Positions 2,628 through 39,998 of a DNA stretch of 39,998 nucleotides are shown in pieces. The DNA comes from Candidatus Merdivivens pullistercoris (GTDB taxonomy: Bacteria > Bacteroidota > Bacteroidia > Bacteroidales > UBA932). Location: assembly GCA_017694935.1 (NCBI GenBank), contig JADIME010000036.1, positions 1-39,998 of the forward strand. The letters are read 5' to 3'. Position 1 is the first letter of the stretch. The number at the start of each line of letters is the position of its first letter. The notes beneath the pieces are model-generated. The model searched no databases. It had not been told where the DNA came from and saw nothing but the letters and a program-made list of their open reading frames with translations. The translations under genes were made by a program, and so were the position numbers.

Positions 2628-4310
2628 TTATTCGTAAAGGAACCTCTTGATACTCTTCTTCGGGGTCTTTTCAAACTCGGTGGCCATAACCTCCACCTTC
2701 GACAGTTTGCTGTAGGAAGGCAAAGACTTGTTTATATCCGTGAGCAGGGCATCCATTGCATCGGAAACCACGGCTTCGCTATCCGGTTTCGCATCCGTTG
2801 AATGCTTCTGGTTTTTCTCCGAGGCATCCGAAACAATCGCATCGGTATCGGGATAAACCAGCGCGACAAGCCTGTCATTTCGGGACACCACTATGGATTC
2901 GATTACATGCCTGTGGCAGTTCAGCTTGTCCTCTATTTCCTCAGGATAGATATTTTGGCCGTTAGGTCCGAGAACCATGTTCTTGCAACGTCCTTTTATG
3001 AAAATATTGCCTTCGGCATCCATTATTCCCATGTCTCCGGTATGAAGCCATCCGTCCGGAGTGAAAGCCGCTGAGGATGCATCTTTATTTTTATAATATC
3101 CAGCCATTACATTGTCACCGCGTGTCTGGATTTCACCGACTTCGTTTTCCGGATCCGCTGAAGCGATCCTTACCTCCATGCGGTCCACGGGTTTTCCGCA
3201 AGAGCGGAAGGCAAACTTCGAATAATGTTCATAGCTTATCAGCGGCGCGCATTCGGTCATGCCGTAGCCCACGCAATAAGGCAGGCCGACTTTCCTCATC
3301 GCAGCCTCCACGGCCTCGTTCAGAGGGGCGCCCCCGATGATGATGTATTTCACATTACCTCCGAAGACGGACATCAGCTTGTCATATATCTTCTTGTAAA
3401 TCACCGATGAAATGACCGGCAACCTCAAAGCCCTCTTCATGACCGGCTTGTTCAGGACAGGAAATACCGATGAGTAGAATATCTTTTCGATAATCAAAGG
3501 AACCGCGATGATCATGAACGGCCTGACTTCCGACAATGCATCGAGCAATATCTTCGGCGAAGGAGTCTTGCCTAAAAAGTTCAGCTCATATCCGGCGCAT
3601 ACGGGGAAAAGGAATTCCACCGCCATTCCGTACATGTGCGCCATCGGAAGCATCGACAATGCCTTGTCGCCTTCCTTGCCGAAAATATTATCCTTTATGA
3701 ACACGACATTCGAACTTACTGCACGGTACGACAGCATCACCCCTTTCGGCGCACTCGTGGTACCAGACGTATAATTGATTATCGCTATTTTTTCGAGATC
3801 ATCCGCCGGATAAGACACAGCGTCAGGAGTGAAATTCCCGCCGAAATCCCGGTTGAATTGTTCCGTCGCATCCGCTATCTTCCTTGCCGCATCCTCCCCG
3901 TCAGGTGCGTAGAGCAAGGAGAAATCCTTCAGGCTGAACACGGCTTCGGCCTTTGTTCCTACTATACCGGCCTTTTTCCACAAATCCTCGTCTATAAACA
4001 GGATCCTGCTTTCAGAATGGTCCGTGAGCTGGGCAATGCTTTCAGGATGGAAATCGCTCAGCAACGGCACGGCCACGGCACCGTATGCATTGACGGAAAT
4101 AAAGGCAACTGCCCAATTCGCCCCGTTTTTTCCGCAGATCGCGACTTTGTCACCGTCGGCAAGTCCCAATTCCCTGTAGGCATAATGCAGGCGGGCTATC
4201 TGCCCGGCCATCTGCCCGTAAGTATAGGAAATGCCCCCGCGGTCTTTCAAAGCCCCGCAATCCCATTTTTCTTTGATAGTGTTTTCAATTAGCTTTAGAT
4301 AATTTTCCAT
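2628..4310 (-). CDS. Long-chain acyl-CoA synthetase / AMP-binding ligase
   Basis: A 560-residue ANL-superfamily ligase that activates a fatty acid as acyl-AMP and then CoA thioester. The P-loop is YTSGTTSAPKGVM (around residues 178-190), followed by GGAPL, YGMTE, HTGDMG and the hinge KGRCKNMVLGPNGQNIYPEEIE. The C-terminal catalytic lysine region is KTPKKSIKRFLY. The length is near that of short FadD-type enzymes. The C-terminal lobe carries an odd insertion of about 35 residues, rich in Asp/Ser, with two related segments (AIVSDASEK and AVVSDAMDA) whose DNA is about 76% identical (2758-2786 and 2824-2852), so it looks like a local duplication. It is the last gene of a leftward operon with a Gate-domain membrane protein and a porin-like barrel. 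Substrate chain length is not visible. Confidence 0.88.
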   Translation of the reverse strand: MENYLKLIENTIKEKWDCGALKDRGGISYTYGQMAGQIARLHYAYRELGLADGDKVAICGKNGANWAVAFISVNAYGAVAVPLLSDFHPESIAQLTDHSESRILFIDEDLWKKAGIVGTKAEAVFSLKDFSLLYAPDGEDAARKIADATEQFNRDFGGNFTPDAVSYPADDLEKIAIINYTSGTTSAPKGVMLSYRAVSSNVVFIKDNIFGKEGDKALSMLPMAHMYGMAVEFLFPVCAGYELNFLGKTPSPKILLDALSEVRPFMIIAVPLIIEKIFYSSVFPVLNKPVMKRALRLPVISSVIYKKIYDKLMSVFGGNVKYIIIGGAPLNEAVEAAMRKVGLPYCVGYGMTECAPLISYEHYSKFAFRSCGKPVDRMEVRIASADPENEVGEIQTRGDNVMAGYYKNKDASSAAFTPDGWLHTGDMGIMDAEGNIFIKGRCKNMVLGPNGQNIYPEEIEDKLNCHRHVIESIVVSRNDRLVALVYPDTDAIVSDASEKNQKHSTDAKPDSEAVVSDAMDALLTDINKSLPSYSKLSKVEVMATEFEKTPKKSIKRFLYE

Positions 4311-5491: not shown

Positions 5492-6546
5492 GATTTATGA
5501 TTTTCGGATTGAAATACATTTATACGCCAGCGGACACCTATATTGAATATATTCGGTACCGGATTGCTGTTGTCCGAATACCAGAAAGCATGGAGCCTGA
5601 GGTCTTTTTTGCCCTTGATTGGGAAAAATTCCACTCCCGCGCCATAAACGAAATATTTTGTTCCGGGAACTACCATCGGGTCGTACGGATTACTGATTCC
5701 GGCTTCCTGCCCGAGGTTCTGATCGTAACCTCCTTTCAAAAATACATTGAATTTTTCCGAAAGCGAGCACGTCACCATGCATGTAAGGGAAAAATCCGAG
5801 AAGAAGCCCCTCTGGTTTCCTCCTACCGCATATCTGTTGGTATAATCTATATCGACGGTAACAGGATTGAACGCGAACCTGTTGCCCAACGCGATGTAAT
5901 TCAGATAATGTCCTCTTTCCCTTTCAACCATATTGACCGAATACAGGGTCTTGAACCACCCCATATTGCCGGACCACAAAAGATTGTAGGCGAACCTGCC
6001 GTCATACGCTGCCGTACTGAAAGGCGAATTGGTGACCTGTGCTTTAAGGCTATGGTCGCCTATGTCATCGACGTATGTCAGTGAAAGCCCCAGCTGGTAA
6101 CAGGTCACATTGTTGCAATACATTGAATAAAAATACACGTCTATCGGATTCATATCATACTCGAATCCTCCTATCGCAATGACATCCTTCCCTGCCGTAA
6201 GCGAAAAGTTCTTGTGAAAACGGTATTTCAGGTAAAGCCAGTCGGTGGCATTGAAGAAAGTCGTCGGATTCAGATCCTTGGTAAACAGCCTCTGCCTGTA
6301 TGCATACGTCAGGTTTTCAGTAATGGCCCCGTCCATGACGAGCGTTATGAATTTTCCTCCGAAACCCAACTCCGTTCCCTTGTCCGGGGAAGCGGAATAT
6401 GCCGTGACCTGACCGTCGAGTCTGGTATCGAGGGCTATATTGATCTTGAAATCGAGCTTTTTGTCTTCTTTTTCCTCCTTCTGGGCGGCGGCCGGCACAG
6501 CGGCCAGTGCCAAAACGGCAAAGAGGGCGAGCAACCGTGTATGCAT
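5488..6546 (-). CDS. Outer-membrane porin-like beta-barrel protein
   Basis: A 352-residue protein with a signal peptide (MHTRLLALFAVLALAAVPAA, cleavage near AAAQ) and then a charged KEEKEDKK linker. The mature part is full of alternating aromatic strands (YAYRQRLF, WLYLKYRFHKNFSLTAGKD, HAFWYSDN), and it ends in IFNIGVRWRINVF plus a short tail, typical of an outer-membrane barrel with a terminal aromatic strand. The GKDVIAIGGFEYDMNPIDVY segment resembles phosphate-selective porin (OprO/P) family proteins. The ATG at 6546 was chosen over the farther upstream start because it begins the signal peptide and lies 26 bp after the -7 box at 6573-6580. It heads a three-gene operon. The substrate is unknown. 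Confidence 0.78.
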   Translation of the reverse strand: MHTRLLALFAVLALAAVPAAAQKEEKEDKKLDFKINIALDTRLDGQVTAYSASPDKGTELGFGGKFITLVMDGAITENLTYAYRQRLFTKDLNPTTFFNATDWLYLKYRFHKNFSLTAGKDVIAIGGFEYDMNPIDVYFYSMYCNNVTCYQLGLSLTYVDDIGDHSLKAQVTNSPFSTAAYDGRFAYNLLWSGNMGWFKTLYSVNMVERERGHYLNYIALGNRFAFNPVTVDIDYTNRYAVGGNQRGFFSDFSLTCMVTCSLSEKFNVFLKGGYDQNLGQEAGISNPYDPMVVPGTKYFVYGAGVEFFPIKGKKDLRLHAFWYSDNSNPVPNIFNIGVRWRINVFQSENHKS

Positions 6547-6572
6547 AATTGTCTTTTTTACGAAACAAGGTG

Positions 6573-6580
6573 CAAAGATA
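6573..6580 (-). promoter_or_regulatory. Bacteroidota -7 promoter element (TATCTTTG) for the porin-like operon
   Basis: Read on the minus strand, TATCTTTG lies 26 bp before the ATG at 6546, with a TTG 16 bp upstream of it. It should drive the porin-like, Gate-domain and acyl-CoA synthetase genes. Confidence 0.6.
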
Positions 6581-6687
6581 GAAAACTTTTCATAAGCAAT
6601 ACACATTTAACTATTACTATAACGATTATCATAATTGCTATTGAGCATGTTCTCTCATCGTTATTTCAAATGTCTGTTTTTTATCAT

Positions 6688-6695
6688 TATTTTTG
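6688..6695 (+). promoter_or_regulatory. Bacteroidota -7 promoter element (TATTTTTG) for the methyltransferase
   Basis: TATTTTTG matches TAnnTTTG in a very AT-rich intergenic stretch (6607-6756) and lies 61 bp before the ATG at 6757. The rest of this gap holds no gene or strong hairpin that I can see. Confidence 0.5.
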
Positions 6696-6756
6696 TAACA
6701 AATTTAAACTTAGTATAATGGTTAAGATTTGCCAAAAGACCGAATAGTTAAATCAA

Positions 6757-7536
6757 ATGCAACACAGACAAACTGACAGAAGACTGTATTTCAAGGAACT
6801 GGCCTCCACGAGCGACAAATATTTCTTCCCCTACATATCGGCATTCATCAGGCCCGGCGAAGGCACCGGGGTCCTTGAAATAGGCTGCGGGGAAGGAGGA
6901 AACCTGCTGCCATTCGCGAAGGCAGGATGCTCTGTCACCGGGGTGGATCTCGCCGAGAATAAAATAGCGGACGCAATAAGGTTTTTTGAGGAAGAAAACG
7001 CCCCCGGAAGGTTCATCGCCTCCGACATATTCAAGATAACCGGATTCGAAAAAAGTTTCGACCTGATAATCTGCCATGACGTGATAGAACACATCTTCGA
7101 CAAAAAGGCCTTCATGGCAAATCTGAAACGGTACCTGAAACCAGGAGGGACAGTATTCATGGCGTTCCCGGCATGGCAGATGCCTTTCGGGGGGCACCAG
7201 CAGATATGCAAAAGCAAGGTACTGTCGCGTTTTCCGTTCATCCACCTCCTGCCTGCGCCTGTCTACAAAAGCCTGCTCAAATCGGCGGGGGAAAAGGAAG
7301 GCTGCATCACCGAACTGCTTGAAATAAAACAGACACGCACGCCGATAGAGCTATTCGAAAAACTGCTTCATGAATACAATGCCGAGCTGCTCGACAGGAA
7401 ACTGTGGTTCATCAATCCGCATTATGAAGTCAAATTCGGGCTCAAACCGAGGAAATTGCCGGCATTCTTGGGAAAAATCCCTTGGCTGAGGAACTTTTTC
7501 ACCACTTCCTGTTTTTACGTGTTCCGGTTCAGGTAG
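6757..7536 (+). CDS. Class I SAM-dependent methyltransferase
   Basis: A 259-residue protein with the Rossmann methyltransferase order. Motif I is VLEIGCGEGG (about residues 35-44), the acidic end of beta-2 is VTGVDLAENKI, the post-I/II motif is DLIICHDVIEHIFDKKAF with the HDVIEH typical of methyltransferase type 11/23, and LKPGGTVFMAFPAW is motif III. The C-terminal third (ELLDRKLWFINPHYEVKFGLKPRK) has no clear homologue that I recognise and probably sets the substrate. It is a single gene with its own promoter, convergent with the serine hydrolase operon 20 bp downstream. Lipid, quinone or sugar substrates are all possible. Confidence 0.82.
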   Translation: MQHRQTDRRLYFKELASTSDKYFFPYISAFIRPGEGTGVLEIGCGEGGNLLPFAKAGCSVTGVDLAENKIADAIRFFEEENAPGRFIASDIFKITGFEKSFDLIICHDVIEHIFDKKAFMANLKRYLKPGGTVFMAFPAWQMPFGGHQQICKSKVLSRFPFIHLLPAPVYKSLLKSAGEKEGCITELLEIKQTRTPIELFEKLLHEYNAELLDRKLWFINPHYEVKFGLKPRKLPAFLGKIPWLRNFFTTSCFYVFRFR

Positions 7537-7555
7537 ATTCTTGGAAACGTCTGGA

Positions 7556-8875
7556 TTAAGAAGCTGTTTCCTGCACATCCTGCAATTCGAACAGATCTCT
7601 TTCCGGCCACTGTCCTACGGTCTTTGAGAGCTGGTTGAAAAGCCGGCTAATGTCTTTTGAAAACATGGAACCTTTCCATGTGCTCGAATTGGTCACGAGT
7701 ATCCAGCAGAAACCGTCCGGATAATACTTGACAAGGGCGCTCGTTCCCGACAGCGTGCCCGAGCGATGCCACTCCCCGTCAGGTTTTATGTCGGCCCATC
7801 CCAGCGGGAAGGTGGAGCGGTCTATATATTCGGTCATCTTTGCCACGCTTTCCTTGGAAATAATGTCCGGTATCCCGTCCCGCCCGTCTATCGAAGCGAC
7901 GAAGCGGGCAAGTTCCGGAACGGATGTTATCCAGCCTCCGGCTCCCAACAGTTTTTCAAAATCGCTGCCACCGTAACACTTCTCGACCATCGTGCCGTCC
8001 AGATGGAAATCCTCCACCGGAACCGCATCCTTGTGCATGTAATACTTCGACTCCCCGTAATGCCTGTCTTCGTAATAATTGCGCCCGAGATACATGTCAT
8101 AACAGCCGCAAGGCGCCAACACGCTGTCCCTTACATAGTCCTCGTATGGCATTCCGGTAACCTTCTCTATCGCAAGCGAAAGGAACATGTATCCCACATT
8201 CGAATACTTCTGCCACGTGCCCGGAGTATAACCCAGCCTGCGCCCGAGGATATATTCGACCAGCCGTTCCATTGTAGGAGGAGTGTCGAGATGCTCCCAT
8301 CTCATGATGTCGGAAGTGCAGAACAGCGGGTCGCCGCGGCTCAGCGTAAAACCGCCCTGATGGCGGAGCAGGTGTTCCACAGTTATGTCGTAATACCTTT
8401 TATCGGAAGCCGACATATACAGGGAATCGTCAAGTATGCCGCCCTCGCCGAACACCAAAGTATCCAACGTCATCCTGCCTTCCTCGCACAGTTTCATTAC
8501 AGTCACCGCCGTAATCAGTTTCGAGACGGACGCTATGCGCAAAAGGTGGTATGGCTGCATGGCCTCGCCCCTCTCCCTGTCCGCCCAACCGTAACCCTTT
8601 GCAAAGAGGAGCGAATCGTTTTTCATAACGGCAAGCGAAACACCTTTTATGTCCCAGAACTTAATCCACGACTCCACTTTCCTGTCCAATTTTTCAAATT
8701 CGGGAAAATCTGAAAAGGAATTGTCCAGAGTATCGTTCAGAGGCCTCAACGACGGCACTTCCTCCACCTGGGCTTTATCCCGTCCGTGAGTACTGAAAAA
8801 CAGCACGGCCGCTACCACGACAAAGACGGCTGTCAATGTTATGACAAGCCTTCCGACAAAACGTTTTCCGCTCAT
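7556..8875 (-). CDS. Serine hydrolase, class C beta-lactamase / penicillin-binding protein fold
   Basis: A 439-residue protein with one N-terminal membrane helix (about residues 9-27), so it is anchored with the enzyme in the periplasm. The active-site set is visible: SxxK as SVSK (Ser116, Lys119), YSN (224-226), and HRSGTLSG near residue 368 in place of KTG, which is common in this AmpC/esterase/peptidase group. Its start overlaps the kinase-like gene by 4 bp (ATGA), and it is the last gene of a six-gene leftward operon. A D-aminopeptidase, carboxypeptidase or esterase role is more likely than antibiotic resistance. The last codons (ETAS-stop) are written by AAACAGCTTCTTAA, which is also the complement of a 12-mer repeated elsewhere in this window. 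Confidence 0.85.
   Translation of the reverse strand: MSGKRFVGRLVITLTAVFVVVAAVLFFSTHGRDKAQVEEVPSLRPLNDTLDNSFSDFPEFEKLDRKVESWIKFWDIKGVSLAVMKNDSLLFAKGYGWADRERGEAMQPYHLLRIASVSKLITAVTVMKLCEEGRMTLDTLVFGEGGILDDSLYMSASDKRYYDITVEHLLRHQGGFTLSRGDPLFCTSDIMRWEHLDTPPTMERLVEYILGRRLGYTPGTWQKYSNVGYMFLSLAIEKVTGMPYEDYVRDSVLAPCGCYDMYLGRNYYEDRHYGESKYYMHKDAVPVEDFHLDGTMVEKCYGGSDFEKLLGAGGWITSVPELARFVASIDGRDGIPDIISKESVAKMTEYIDRSTFPLGWADIKPDGEWHRSGTLSGTSALVKYYPDGFCWILVTNSSTWKGSMFSKDISRLFNQLSKTVGQWPERDLFELQDVQETAS
7557..7568 (+). repeat. Solo TAAGAAGCTGTT motif at the 3' end of the serine hydrolase gene
   Basis: This 12-mer also occurs at 15854-15865 and 37188-37199, always on the plus strand. Its last ten bases equal the ends of the dispersed element at 120-129 and 39868-39877. 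Here it overlaps the stop codon. Confidence 0.5.
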
Positions 8876-9504
8876 TTCGACAAGATGTTTATTTTCTTGT
8901 CAATGAAACTCAATATGTAATCTATCGTCCCGTCTATTCCGAGCACCGACGAGTCTATGCACAGATGGTACGTATGAGCCACGCCCCATTCTCCGAAAGT
9001 ATAGTAATTGTAATACTCGGCCCTCTTCTTGTCCGTCTGCTCTATCAACGACCTTGCCTCGTCCGCGGATATGTTCCTGCGCCTGCTTACCCTCTCTACC
9101 CTCGCCTCGTCCGGGGCCGAAATAAACACATTGGCTATCCTCGGATGATCCCTGAGGATATAATCGGCGCACCTCCCTACGAAAATGGCGGAACCGGCTT
9201 TGGCAAGCGAACGTATGGTCTCGCTTTGTATGCGGAACAACTCATTGCTGTCCATGAAATTGGTGCTTTCATACTGCACTCCCTGCCGGAAAGCCGAAAA
9301 GAGCGAGAATTTTTTTACTTTCTCGTCGCTTTTCATGAAAAACTCGGGGCTGAAACCGCTTCTTTTGGCCGTTTCGGTTATTATTTCCGTATCGTACGCC
9401 TTTATTCCAAGCCTCTCTCCCAGCTTGAATGCGATTTCGCGCCCGCCGCTCCCGTATTGGCGGCCTATGTTTATAACATAATGTTCAGAAGAAAATTCAC
9501 TCAT
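8872..9504 (-). CDS. Cytidylate-kinase-like P-loop protein
   Basis: A 210-residue protein of the cytidylate kinase-like (Cytidylate_kin2) family. The modified P-loop GRQYGSGGREIA lies near residues 14-25, and GSAIFVGRCADYILRDH and NVFISAPDEARVERVSRR with an arginine-rich lid follow. True Cmk is usually a separate gene, so this is probably a paralogue with unknown nucleotide or other small-molecule substrate. The ATG at 9504 was chosen because it begins one base after the MATE stop codon; the alternative at 9519 would overlap it by 14 bp. The 3' end overlaps the serine hydrolase start. Confidence 0.8.
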   Translation of the reverse strand: MSEFSSEHYVINIGRQYGSGGREIAFKLGERLGIKAYDTEIITETAKRSGFSPEFFMKSDEKVKKFSLFSAFRQGVQYESTNFMDSNELFRIQSETIRSLAKAGSAIFVGRCADYILRDHPRIANVFISAPDEARVERVSRRRNISADEARSLIEQTDKKRAEYYNYYTFGEWGVAHTYHLCIDSSVLGIDGTIDYILSFIDKKINILSK

Positions 9505-9505
9505 A

Positions 9506-10903
9506 TCAAATACCTCCAAGTATGGCCGGGTCGTCCCCGTCGTTAAGTTTATCGAATTTGTTCATCAGCCCCTTCAGCATAATGGCCGCCAACACGGAAG
9601 CCAACAGGTCGGATACCGGGAAACTCGCCCACACGCCCTGTATCGGATTTTCCCGGAACAGATAAGGCAAAAGGAAAATGCACGGAAGCAGGAACAGTAT
9701 CTGCCTTGAAAGAGACAGCCATATGGCCTTGCTGACCATGCCCATGGACTGGAAGAAATTGGACGTCACCATCTGGAATCCCACCAACGGGAACATCAGC
9801 ACGGTTATGGACAATCCCATCGCGGACAGGCGCACCAATTCCGCATCCGAAGTAAAAATCCCGGAAACGGTTTTCGGGAAAACAAGCCCGAGCAAGAAAC
9901 CGACACACATGATCATCGTGGCGAATTTCACAGTCTTCCAGAACACTTCACGAACCCTCTTGTATTGCCGCGCCCCGTAATTGTACCCGGAAATAGGCTG
10001 CATGCCCTGATTCAGTCCCATCACAATCATTACAAACAGGAAACTGATCCTGTTCACTATCCCGTACGCGCCTATCGCCAGGTCGCCTCCGTAACGCATC
10101 ATCTGCTTGTTCAGGAATATCACGATCACACAGGCCGCCACATTCATAAGGAACGGGGCAAAGCCTATCGAAAGCGAGTCCTTTGCTATCCTCTTGTCCA
10201 GGATGAGTATCCTTTTCCCGAAATGGACTGCCTTCGTCTTACGGGTAAATTCCCAGAACACATATACGGCCGCGAGCAACTGGGCTATCACCGTGGCTAT
10301 GGCGGCGCCGCTTACCCCCATGCCGAAAACGAATATGAAGACAGGGGCGAGTGCTATGTTCAGTATGACAGTGAAAAGCGTGGCTCCCATGGCCTTCTTG
10401 GGTTCCCCTATGGCACGCTGGAGATTGTTAAGGCCAAGATACAGGTGGGTGATTACATTTCCCAAAAGTATCACCCTCATGTAATCGCGGGCATAGACTA
10501 TGGTATTTTCACTCGCACCGAAAAAGTACAGTATCGGGTCAAGGAAAGACAATGTAAGTATACTGAACGCTATACCTGTTATCAGACACAGGGTTACGGT
10601 ATTGCTGAGGACCTTGGTGGCCGCCTCGTAGTTGCGCTGGCCGAGCAAGACCGAAATCAAAGTCGATGCCCCGACTCCCACAAGCGTTCCGAAAGCCGCC
10701 GCAAGGTTCATCAACGGAAAAGTAACCGCTATCCCGGAAATCGCATACGCCCCTACGCCGTGACCTATGAAGATACTGTCAATCATATTGTACAATGACG
10801 AAGCCGTCATCGCTATGATTGCCGGGATGGCGTATGTCTTCAACAATTTTCCTACCGGCTCTATGCCGAGGACCGTAGGGGAAACCTTGGAACTGTTATT
10901 CAT
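9506..10903 (-). CDS. MATE-family multidrug/small-molecule exporter
   Basis: A 465-residue protein with twelve predicted membrane helices in two homologous halves. The start LLKTYAIPAIIAMTASSLYN is a typical MATE N terminus, and IDSIFIGHGVGAYAISGIAV, NVITHLYLGLNNLQRAIGEPKK and GLNQGMQPISGYNYGARQY are characteristic of the NorM/DinF-like group. These proteins export cationic drugs or metabolites using Na+ or H+. The start overlaps the end of the upstream FKBP gene by 8 bp, so it is part of the same operon. No substrate can be inferred from the neighbours. Confidence 0.88.
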   Translation of the reverse strand: MNNSSKVSPTVLGIEPVGKLLKTYAIPAIIAMTASSLYNMIDSIFIGHGVGAYAISGIAVTFPLMNLAAAFGTLVGVGASTLISVLLGQRNYEAATKVLSNTVTLCLITGIAFSILTLSFLDPILYFFGASENTIVYARDYMRVILLGNVITHLYLGLNNLQRAIGEPKKAMGATLFTVILNIALAPVFIFVFGMGVSGAAIATVIAQLLAAVYVFWEFTRKTKAVHFGKRILILDKRIAKDSLSIGFAPFLMNVAACVIVIFLNKQMMRYGGDLAIGAYGIVNRISFLFVMIVMGLNQGMQPISGYNYGARQYKRVREVFWKTVKFATMIMCVGFLLGLVFPKTVSGIFTSDAELVRLSAMGLSITVLMFPLVGFQMVTSNFFQSMGMVSKAIWLSLSRQILFLLPCIFLLPYLFRENPIQGVWASFPVSDLLASVLAAIMLKGLMNKFDKLNDGDDPAILGGI

Positions 10904-14356: not shown

Positions 14357-15097
14357 ATGACCGCCCAATACGTGGAAAGATACGGAATATCCATTCAAGT
14401 TTTCTTGAATGGATATTCTTATAAAATAACCGACAGTGACGGGAAAACGGTCTCATACAAGGAAGAGGGGACTGTCGAAGAACTGTATTCTTCACGGGAG
14501 CTTTCCTTTCCGTTCGCCGAATATTCCCTGTCATTCAGGACAAATGAATGCGTGCTCGTACCCAATGCCATACTGAAGGAAACATTGCGCCGGGAAAATG
14601 CGGCAGAAGGCAAAAACGAAAAGCCTTGGGAACAGGAGCGGATATTGCGCGGGATATTGTCCGAATATGTACCCATCGACGACAATAGAAAGACAGAATG
14701 CATCGAAGTCCCCGCTTTCGACGCTTCAATCATCTATGCGATCCCAGATAACCCCGTGCTGAAGGCCGTATCCGGGGCGCTGGCACGCGAATGCCGGCCG
14801 CTTCCGGAAATTTACATCATTTTGGAAGAGCTGCACGCCTTGAAATGCCACAACAGGGTAATCGCATCATACAGGGACTCCCTTCTGTCTTTGGCCATCG
14901 CCGAAGAAGACAGGCTGCTGCTCTGCAATTCGTTCCAGGCGGCAGATTTCACCACGGCACTGTATTTCATATTCTCGGCCTTGAAACAGTACAGCCTGAA
15001 CCCCGAAGTCACCACGATAAATTTCATGACCCCTTTGGATGACGAGAAACAGATGTTGCTGTACAGGTACTTTTCAGGAGTGGAGGCAATCAGATGA
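14357..15097 (+). CDS. DUF3822 family protein
   Basis: A 246-residue soluble protein of the Bacteroidota DUF3822 family, which is commonly found beside rsmD. The fold of this family resembles paired actin-like ATPase halves: ASIIYAIPDNPVLKAVSG and IYIILEELHALKCHNRVIASY are strand-helix pairs, and the ending STTINF-type strand is TTINFMTPLDDEKQMLLYRYF. No catalytic set is visible and the function is unknown. Codons 10-21 contain a 15-bp perfect inverted repeat with a TTTT loop (14385-14418), which would fold the start of the message. There is no alternative Met downstream before residue 220, so the 14357 start holds. It overlaps rsmD by 4 bp. Confidence 0.82.
   Translation: MTAQYVERYGISIQVFLNGYSYKITDSDGKTVSYKEEGTVEELYSSRELSFPFAEYSLSFRTNECVLVPNAILKETLRRENAAEGKNEKPWEQERILRGILSEYVPIDDNRKTECIEVPAFDASIIYAIPDNPVLKAVSGALARECRPLPEIYIILEELHALKCHNRVIASYRDSLLSLAIAEEDRLLLCNSFQAADFTTALYFIFSALKQYSLNPEVTTINFMTPLDDEKQMLLYRYFSGVEAIR
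14385..14418 (+). promoter_or_regulatory. Perfect 15-bp hairpin at the 5' end of the DUF3822 coding sequence
   Basis: GAATATCCATTCAAG (14385-14399) and CTTGAATGGATATTC (14404-14418) pair without a mismatch around a TTTT loop. The right arm is followed by TTATAAAATA rather than a T run. It lies 34-67 bp after the stop codon of the upstream gene and inside the reading frame of the next. It could attenuate transcription, pause ribosomes, stabilise the upstream message or be a protein site. Confidence 0.7.
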
Positions 15098-37203: not shown

Positions 37204-37899
37204 ATGGAAAGGACTGAAATAAACCACCTATGCGACATAATGGCACGTCTGATACCTTTTCCGGTATATGTAATGGAATTGGATACCGGGCACATCTTAT
37301 ATGCATCCGAAAGCCATTCGGGAGAATTTATCGGAGGCTATCCGGCATCCGATGCCGTAGACAAGGGTTGGAGGTTTCTCCATGAAATAATCAGCCCTGA
37401 AATGAGATCCTTCATTGATGATGCAATAAACGTCATAATGGATTTCTATACAAAAGACCTTGATACAGACAAAAAACATTTTACCATACCGTTCAACTGC
37501 GATATTTTAACTAAAAACAAGGCGTTGAAAGTCACCGTAAACCATAAATTCATCCCGTTCATTATAGATTCCGACGGAAAAACCACTCACATCATGGGCG
37601 TATTTTTCCCGGGAAACATCGCCCAGAAAAACACATTGGTCGCAAGAAACGAAAACGAGGGGAAAAGGTGGATATATGAAAACGGGAAATGGGAAAATGC
37701 CGCGTACATGGAATTGTCCGATATGGAAAAAATAATAATGACATACTCCATCCAAGGTATGAGCATTAAAATGATAGCCTGGAATATAGGCAAATCCGAA
37801 GATACTGTCAAGAAATACAGAAAAGCCATATTCACCAAACTGGGAGTACACAATATCGCCGAAGCCATCACCATCATACTGACGCACAAGATGCTGTAA
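37204..37899 (+). CDS. PAS-like domain plus LuxR-type HTH regulator
   Basis: A 231-residue protein. The first half (about 10-140) is PAS-like: PFPVYVMELDTGHILYASE, then a helix-rich middle, and KVTVNHKFIPFIIDSDGKTTHIMGVFF strands that I break here at residue level. The second half carries a LuxR-type helix-turn-helix, LSDMEKIIMTYSIQGMSIKM then IAWNIGKSEDTVKKYRKAIF and TKLGVHNIAEAITI, close to the canonical GLSNKEIAxxLxxSxxTVKxH form. It is an autoregulating candidate for the nearby peptide maturase, which converges on it across a 313-bp repeat-rich gap. The ATG overlaps the end of a repeat motif. The signal it senses is unknown. The base composition is more AT-rich to the eye than yicC. Confidence 0.8.
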   Translation: MERTEINHLCDIMARLIPFPVYVMELDTGHILYASESHSGEFIGGYPASDAVDKGWRFLHEIISPEMRSFIDDAINVIMDFYTKDLDTDKKHFTIPFNCDILTKNKALKVTVNHKFIPFIIDSDGKTTHIMGVFFPGNIAQKNTLVARNENEGKRWIYENGKWENAAYMELSDMEKIIMTYSIQGMSIKMIAWNIGKSEDTVKKYRKAIFTKLGVHNIAEAITIILTHKML

Positions 37900-38212: not shown

Positions 38213-39496
38213 TCACACTCCATTTATAAAAGTCCTCAGCCTCGCCCTCACCGTGCGTTCGACTGCCTCCGGGGAATTGTCCGCCACACAGCCGTCCGGA
38301 TCCCCGGCTTCCAACACGTTCTGAGAACATGTCTGCAAGCATATCGGGAATATCAGGCATTCGCGGCAGGATTTGGATTTGTACTTGCACGACAGCCTTT
38401 TGATGTTTGAATCGTTGTATATGACAGTACCGTCAGGATTAAGGACACCTGCGCTATGCTTCGCCTCAAAGTTCCTCGCGGTGCATTTGTATATCAACCC
38501 GTCGTAATTTATCACAAGGCTGTTCCGTTTGTCTGCATAGCACAATCCTCTCCTGCCTGCATTGTCACCGACATCGTAACCATGATCCTTGAACTTGCCT
38601 TTTACCGCCGCATATTCTTCCCGCAATGCGGCATCTTCTTTTTCCTGCCATATCCTGTGAAACCTGACCTCGAAGCCCGGCAAGGAAGCCACATCCCTGA
38701 AATCCTCCGCCACCTGCATGAACGAGAGGATATTGTCATGAGTATAGTTGCACCTGACTGTCACAGGAAAGCCCGACCTTGCCGCATATATTGCATTATC
38801 CCTGACCTTGGCGTATGTCCCTGAACCGTCTTTAAGATGCTTTGTCTTGTCATGTACCTGCCCGCCTCCGTCGAAAGGAATCTGCAGACCGATTCTGACC
38901 CCCATGGAATCAAGCTCGTCCGTCACTTTCGGGGTAAACAGCCAAGCGTTGGTAGTCATGTAAAAATCGACATTCTTACCTGCAGAACGGCAGACATCCA
39001 AAGAATGCCGGATCAACGGCTTTATTATCTTTCCATAGTACAGCATCGGCTCGCCCCCGAAAAAAGAAATCACCATACGCCTCAGATCCGGCTCACTGAC
39101 ACTACGGTCAATAAAACGTTTTACAGCTTTCACAACATCAGCGCTCATAAAAGAACCAGAAAGGTGGTCTTCATAGCAATACCAGCACCTGAAATTGCAG
39201 TACAGGGTCGGGTTTATGGTAAGATGCAGCCTGTCCATGCTTTCTATTTCCGGTGAGAGGCCATCGATGACGGCGGCATACTCGTCCGTGTCATCATCAA
39301 CTACGAAACCTTTTTCCAAAAGTTTGTCATAAAACGCCGGATGTATCCCGCGTATGGCCTCGGGACTTGAAGAATTGTCCGAAAATATCCCGAACAGTTC
39401 CCCCTGAAGGATGAGAAGCCCGTCGGATGCGGTATTGTACAACAACATCTTGCCGTCCGGGAGAGGCAACGTATAATTGTATTTGCTCGGTTTCAT
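38213..39496 (-). CDS. Radical SAM/SPASM peptide maturase, GG-leader Bacteroidales type
   Basis: A 427-residue enzyme. Residues 1-75 form a small N-terminal, probably precursor-binding, domain. The radical SAM cluster is Cys100-x3-Cys104-x2-Cys107, followed by the SAM-contact FFGGEP (145-150). The SPASM region fits the rule exactly: Cys319, then Gly333-x4-Cys338, then Cys377-x2-Cys380-x5-Cys386-x3-Cys390, and Cys403, so two auxiliary 4Fe-4S clusters are expected. SPASM maturases make thioether, C-C or similar cross-links in ribosomal peptides. The start has a strong Shine-Dalgarno AAAGGAGT (39503-39510), unusual for this genome. Upstream on the same strand is a cysteine-rich GG-leader frame, its likely substrate. 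No transporter or peptidase is in the window. Confidence 0.88.
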   Translation of the reverse strand: MKPSKYNYTLPLPDGKMLLYNTASDGLLILQGELFGIFSDNSSSPEAIRGIHPAFYDKLLEKGFVVDDDTDEYAAVIDGLSPEIESMDRLHLTINPTLYCNFRCWYCYEDHLSGSFMSADVVKAVKRFIDRSVSEPDLRRMVISFFGGEPMLYYGKIIKPLIRHSLDVCRSAGKNVDFYMTTNAWLFTPKVTDELDSMGVRIGLQIPFDGGGQVHDKTKHLKDGSGTYAKVRDNAIYAARSGFPVTVRCNYTHDNILSFMQVAEDFRDVASLPGFEVRFHRIWQEKEDAALREEYAAVKGKFKDHGYDVGDNAGRRGLCYADKRNSLVINYDGLIYKCTARNFEAKHSAGVLNPDGTVIYNDSNIKRLSCKYKSKSCRECLIFPICLQTCSQNVLEAGDPDGCVADNSPEAVERTVRARLRTFINGV

Positions 39497-39510: not shown

Positions 39511-39559
39511 TGCAGGCACTACTAAATGTTTATACATTAATGTCAAATAAAGACAATCA

Positions 39560-39587
39560 AGGGCGGCATCACGCACCATACCGCCCT
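39560..39587 (-). terminator. Hairpin between precursor frame and maturase
   Basis: AGGGCGG (39560-39566) pairs perfectly with CCGCCCT (39581-39587). On the minus strand it follows the precursor stop codon by 7 bases and is followed by TTGATTGTCTTT. It can act as an attenuator giving more precursor than enzyme message. Confidence 0.6.
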
Positions 39588-39594
39588 GATAAAA

Positions 39595-39867
39595 CTACAA
39601 TTTACATGGATTTGCTGTCACAGGTCCGCTATCATCGTCATTTTCATCAACCTTTTGGACACATAAAGTATTGTACCAACATTGAGGCTTATTATTATGA
39701 CATGTCTCATTGCCGACACAATCACCATTGCCTGAACAATGATTGTTATTAATCTCGCCATCGGCGGCATTTCCACCGATGCTTGCATCGGTAAACCCTC
39801 CGAGCAGCTTTCCTTGCTCGTCATGTGAAAGCGGTTGTACGCTTTCAACTAAATCCTGAAGACTTTT
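39595..39867 (-). pseudogene. Cysteine-rich GG-leader RiPP precursor without start codon
   Basis: A continuous 90-codon frame, read from the Lys codon at 39867 to the TAG at 39595-39597, encodes a leader (KSLQDLVESVQPLSHDEQ, then GKLLGGF) and a core with six cysteines: CSGNGDC, CVGNETC, CHNNKPQC, CWYNTLC, and NPCKL at the end. The GG motif at residues 23-24 is where C39-type transporters cut. No ATG, GTG or TTG occurs in frame; three codons upstream of Lys is TAA, and the codon in the expected Met position is TCT. TCT is the last triplet of the dispersed element end that begins at 39868. The element therefore seems to have replaced the start region. A sequencing or assembly artefact is possible, since the element lies at the window edge. 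Confidence 0.8.
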
Positions 39868-39998
39868 AGAAGCTGTTTAAAATTTTTTCAAAAGTTCTTT
39901 GTGCCACCATTTCGGCATCTTTCTGCCATTTTTATCACACAATAGCGCTGCTATTCTCCTCAAAAAACGGCAAAAACCTGCACAAAAGCGTGTCTCAA
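39868..39998. mobile_element. Dispersed inverted-repeat element, copy B (left part; right end outside window)
   Basis: The left end is AGAAGCTGTTTAAA followed by ATTTTTTC, the 22-bp terminal inverted repeat found reversed at the right end of copy A. From 39901 the sequence matches positions 1-98 with 81 of 98 identical bases and no gaps, and the window stops at TGTCTCAA. The element abuts the first retained codon of the precursor frame. The central 20 bases (AATAGCGCTGCTATTCTCCT) are unchanged between copies, while the flanks vary, so the hairpin core seems conserved. Confidence 0.75.

Follow-up and report, generated by a model that had tools for sequence, protein, structure and literature searches.

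Probable interruption of the precursor gene of a radical SAM RiPP operon by a 160-bp MITE in a Bacteroidales genome

The genome analysed here very probably encodes a radical SAM RiPP operon, consisting of genes for an outer-membrane protein, a precursor peptide and a maturase, in which the precursor gene is interrupted by a 160-bp MITE; the sequence points to an ordinary loss-of-function insertion and not to a switch. The window, i.e. the whole stretch of DNA under analysis, is the entire contig C16 (39,998 bp), which belongs to a genome of 2.12 Mb in 95 contigs. An earlier sequence-only reading of this DNA had proposed that it holds the RiPP precursor of a radical SAM/SPASM system and that gene finders would overlook this precursor. 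The results presented below support the proposal.

The 3′ part of the interrupted precursor gene occupies positions 39595–39867 on the minus strand. Its frame of 90 codons runs from 39867 down to 39598 with the stop codon at 39597–39595, opens with KSLQDLVESVQPLSHDEQGKLLGGF, and retains a leader that ends in LLGGF and is followed by a core with six cysteines. The GG leader and six-cysteine core had already been recognized from the letters alone and were borne out, as were the absence of a start codon (in-frame scanning revealed no ATG, GTG or TTG before codon 83) and the presence of an in-frame TAA three codons 5′ of the first Lys. Using phmmer, we compared the 90-residue frame with a set of 3126 ORFs, drawn from the surroundings of 57 homologous maturases and from a small number of other loci. 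The top matches (E 3.8e-5 to 7e-3) were small GG-leader Cys-rich ORFs located beside homologous maturases, and because the best hits are precursors of this type, the frame appears to be a genuine RiPP precursor, more than a chance ORF. An NCBIfam search with the truncated frame gave no match, the cut-off of the GG-Bacteroidales precursor family TIGR04149 not being reached, and no second copy of the precursor was found in the genome. The remnant is undecayed, its downstream reading frame being still open.

The gene for a radical SAM/SPASM peptide maturase (427 aa) lies intact at 38213–39496 on the same strand, 98 bases separating its start from the precursor stop, and its ATG is preceded by the purine-rich AAAGGAG. 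The protein matched the Radical_SAM model with an E value of 1e-12 and contains the CX3CX2C motif (CNFRCWYC, residues 100–107). Its match to the SPASM model was below the cut-off (14.9 bits, E 0.033); an alignment shows the C-terminal SPASM cysteines to be conserved, and NCBIfam models that include SPASM match the full length of the protein. None of the named maturase families that it matched reached the respective cut-off, including TIGR04463 (151 bits, cut-off 525) and the ranthipeptide family PapB (111 bits, cut-off 340). Judged by the radical SAM motif, the SPASM cysteines and the adjacent leader–core precursor, the locus is assigned to the radical SAM/SPASM RiPP systems.

Between the precursor and maturase genes, a strong G+C-rich hairpin is encoded at 39556–39590 on the minus strand (the 80-nt intergenic stretch has a predicted folding energy of −24.2 kcal/mol). 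It is a possible attenuator or stability element, and might possibly act as a partial terminator, fixing how much precursor is made relative to the enzyme. Convergent with the maturase gene, a LuxR-type (GerE) regulator is encoded on the plus strand at 37204–37899 and is a putative member of the cluster. Paralogues of this regulator are found elsewhere in the assembly. Two lie at 14402–15064 of contig C1 (L100, L104) and at 19–201 of contig C60 (L102); one of them contains an in-frame TAG and is directly followed by a MITE, and the other retains only its C-terminal part, at the start of a contig. A third closes a second RiPP cluster, seemingly complete, on contig C53 (L103, 954–10000), which contains a GG-leader Cys-rich precursor (954–1229), a DUF4932 protein, a radical SAM enzyme (2818–4149), a C39-peptidase ABC transporter (5669–7885), an HlyD-like protein (7925–9241) and the LuxR-type regulator itself (9281–10000). 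No peptidase-containing ABC transporter was seen at the window locus, which the transporter of the C53 cluster could in principle serve.

Upstream of the precursor frame, a MITE of presumed IS5 type, 160 bp in its complete form, is represented by its right-hand 130 bp at 39869–39998 on the minus strand, where the terminal repeat reads ...AAACAGCTTC and the contig stops inside the element. According to internal copies, the complete element has the form GAAGC...GCTTC with terminal repeats GAAGCTGTTTAAA; these are inverted repeats of 21 bp, and the element can fold into one long hairpin. It is flanked by a 3-bp target-site duplication of the type TNA, and in 12 of the 15 intact copies the two sides carry the same trinucleotide. 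In the window, the right copy of this duplication is TAA on the minus strand (39866–39868) and overlaps the first Lys codon of the precursor frame. Thus, a dispersed repeat does abut the frame as had been noticed, but it does not begin exactly where the Met should be. The 13-base end of the MITE occurs 141 times in 2.1 Mb, compared with a single occurrence of the reversed control. A longer end pattern was found 121 times in this genome, 39 and 15 times in the remaining two species of the genus, and twice in 37 other genomes of the family, so that within the family sample searched the MITE has expanded in one genus, that of the window, and is essentially restricted to it. Insertions are mostly intergenic: after joining the empty sites, only 3 of the 15 intact copies crossed an ORF of at least 100 aa, versus 384 of 480 random positions. 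Being short, non-coding and present in many copies, with terminal inverted repeats and a target-site duplication of constant length, the element is a MITE. An element of 544 bp that shares these terminal repeats (L170, contig C78 of G001, 1155–1698) contains extra internal sequence without a transposase and was classed as a MITE.

The MITE also broke the assembly at this point, which is why the window stops there: the right end of C16 sits 130 bases deep in the 160-bp element, and many other contigs of the assembly stop in the MITE too, commonly at about 130 bp. Since the window edge is a contig end within a repeat, the sequence upstream of the frame is invisible from the window. At the opposite end of C16, positions 1–129 also belong to a MITE copy, of a subfamily about 87% identical, so that the contig is bounded by the element on both sides.

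The missing 5′ end of the gene is most plausibly located on contig C32, which begins in the same MITE subfamily as the C16 copy. The terminal 100 bases of the two contigs are identical, and the left copy of the TAA duplication (L019, 131–133, minus strand) matches the right one. Read in the orientation of the precursor, C32 contains the end of an outer-membrane β-barrel gene, 29 bp, an ATG, about four further codons and a partial codon, two bases of which overlap the TAA duplication; the MITE then begins. The codon phase matches that of the frame in the window, and this ATG, six codons upstream and past the element, is the likely start codon. Removal of the start codon itself by the element is not supported: the ATG persists on C32, beyond the 160-bp insertion and its TAA duplication.

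MITE halves were collected from the best matches of each search (about 40 scored in each), so the set of halves may be incomplete. Among these matches, right halves with full or nearly full identity to the window copy were found on C16, C25, C57 and C78, and C32 was the sole left half of this subfamily lacking a right half. The duplication is TAA in C32 and C16, TTA in C25, C78 and C87, and TCA in C57; C25, C57, C78 and C87, being right halves with other duplications, were rejected as the partner of C16. Other left flanks ending in TAA belong to the older MITE subfamily, about 87% identical, lack an in-frame ATG and were likewise rejected. Indeed, among 25 distinct flanks ending in TAA, only that of C32 provides an open in-frame ATG within 36 nt, a test passed by 10 of 72 flanks overall. 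As a counterpoint, C25 and C57 carry an identical right half, and several right halves had no partner among the contigs examined. Given the matching TAA, the codon phase, the sole flank with an in-frame ATG and the order of the outer-membrane, precursor and radical SAM genes, we infer that C32, the element and C16 are contiguous, and consider this join well supported.

Homologous loci in relatives agree with the reconstruction. In the L114 leader (MKKIVRT-SLSDVV...LLRGGF), the conserved stretch is preceded by as many residues as in the reconstructed gene, and the conserved part aligns gap-free; in the closest relatives, about seven residues precede the SLQDLV stretch. On these grounds, the copy on C16 appears to lack roughly the first six residues of the precursor and to be otherwise complete. 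The order of outer-membrane, precursor and radical SAM genes is uninterrupted in L145/L146, from the Paludibacteraceae MAGs RGIG9480 and RGIG9579, with gaps of 57 and 90 bp, and is shared by L177/L178. L145/L146 resemble the reconstructed locus in gene order and direction and in having six cysteines in the precursor, and differ from it in the uninterrupted precursor and a maturase only about 30% identical. Homology to the β-barrel of C32 (Pfam OMP_b-brl_3) was detected at E 1.8e-21 for L145 and 1.1e-10 for L178. Homologous outer-membrane β-barrel genes adjoin such maturases and Cys-rich precursors in L145, L146, L115, L135, L177 and L178, and this recurrence suggests a role for the partner in export, uptake or immunity. 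The comparison with relatives that the sequence-only reading called for yielded the same gene order and leader length in distant ones, but no close orthologue with an uninterrupted gene that would display the empty site; even for the nearest maturases, identity does not exceed about 37%. Searches for the maturase in the remaining two species of the genus gave no hit, and a search of the genus for synteny of the outer-membrane or LuxR-type gene, made to confirm the adjacency of C32 and C16, found no orthologue.

In the mechanism we favour, the MITE would have inserted within codon 6 of the precursor gene and duplicated the target TAA. Translation from the C32 ATG is predicted to yield MESRKTKKLFKIFSQNI, 17 residues followed by a stop; ribosomes starting at this authentic ATG would thus enter the element and halt, and the downstream 90 codons, having no start of their own, would give rise to no leader–core peptide. 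Most likely, the peptide is not made from this copy. The repeat parts the precursor from its start, and of the options offered by the sequence-only reading, loss of the peptide by the strain fits best. The insertion is probably recent, as the downstream frame and the maturase are intact and this MITE shows full identity to copies elsewhere in the genome. As the assembly is a consensus, part of the population may lack the insertion. The element is presumably moved in trans by an IS5-family transposase. C-termini of IS5_3 transposases (NF033580) at the starts of C53 and C55 run to ...AAACAGCTTC followed by TTA, and in G002 an IS5-family transposase gene reaches a near-identical terminus with one base changed; only one end of these copies is comparable, a complete copy with both termini being absent from the assembly. 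A DDE_Tnp_1 gene on C50 was rejected as the mobiliser, as it is a degenerate IS5 remnant without these termini.

The integrity of the locus would also suit a reversible switch, in which precise excision of the MITE would turn peptide production on or off among cells of the population: the flanks and the duplication are intact, so that precise excision would restore an open frame; the maturase and the downstream frame are undecayed; and a transposase gene with a matching terminus is present in the genome, although only its end was assembled. Yet the element belongs to a set of dozens of scattered, mostly intergenic copies that bear the marks of ordinary transposition, and no excised form was seen in the data analysed, a consensus assembly. 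Inversion, which had also been envisaged, would leave the ATG outside the element and so fail to supply the frame with a start, for which precise excision would be needed. We found no evidence for such a switch and consider it very improbable. The more specific idea that the MITE excises precisely at appreciable frequency, and that the peptide is made by only a subset of cells, is likewise very improbable; if true, it would constitute transposon-based on/off control of a RiPP.

Assemblies err in repeats, and C16 ends in one, which raises the question of a mis-joined contig end, with an intact precursor beside its own start and the repeat as an artefact. However, the junction with the unique flank falls precisely at the terminus of the repeat and carries a TNA, like other copies, and a second contig terminating in this element offers a partner flank whose TAA and reading frame both fit. 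Such matches are unexpected from an artefact, and an error of this kind is very unlikely. Genes beside some MITEs obtain coding or promoter sequence from them, and the element could accordingly provide the start of the precursor by fusion or re-initiation. The TAA three codons upstream of the Lys and the lack of an ATG, GTG or TTG until codon 83 speak against this: no alternative start is present in the frame or the element, the sequence contradicts it, and we regard it as extremely unlikely.

Interruption of the precursor gene by the MITE, our preferred reading, means that the repeat conceals the RiPP precursor from gene finders in two ways, since it both splits the gene and terminates the contig. 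What is recovered is a putative six-Cys precursor and an outer-membrane partner for one set of Bacteroidota maturases scoring below every named family. Biologically, the event would be an ordinary loss of function caused by a genus-expanded MITE.

Insertion of a MITE into a RiPP precursor gene is a kind of event already known: in Microcystis, a 95 bp MITE lies in the cyanobactin precursor gene pirE and is predicted to silence it (PMC3428304). In both cases, a RiPP precursor gene holds a short element that is non-autonomous and bounded by terminal inverted repeats, whereas the phylum, the element (95 bp) and the RiPP class of pirE differ from those of the Bacteroidales radical SAM system in the window. 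In Porphyromonas gingivalis, IS and MITE repeats are assembly breakpoints (PMC5771137); there, as here, repeats at least as long as the reads break Bacteroidia assemblies, but the element is a different one, the window MITE being essentially restricted to its own genus in the family sample. Bacteroidales radical SAM RiPP clusters with GG-leader precursors have also been described, some of which include outer-membrane protein genes (PMC10352776). The window locus resembles them in that a GG-motif precursor adjoins a radical SAM/SPASM maturase and differs in having no visible peptidase-containing ABC transporter, which the C53 cluster does encode.
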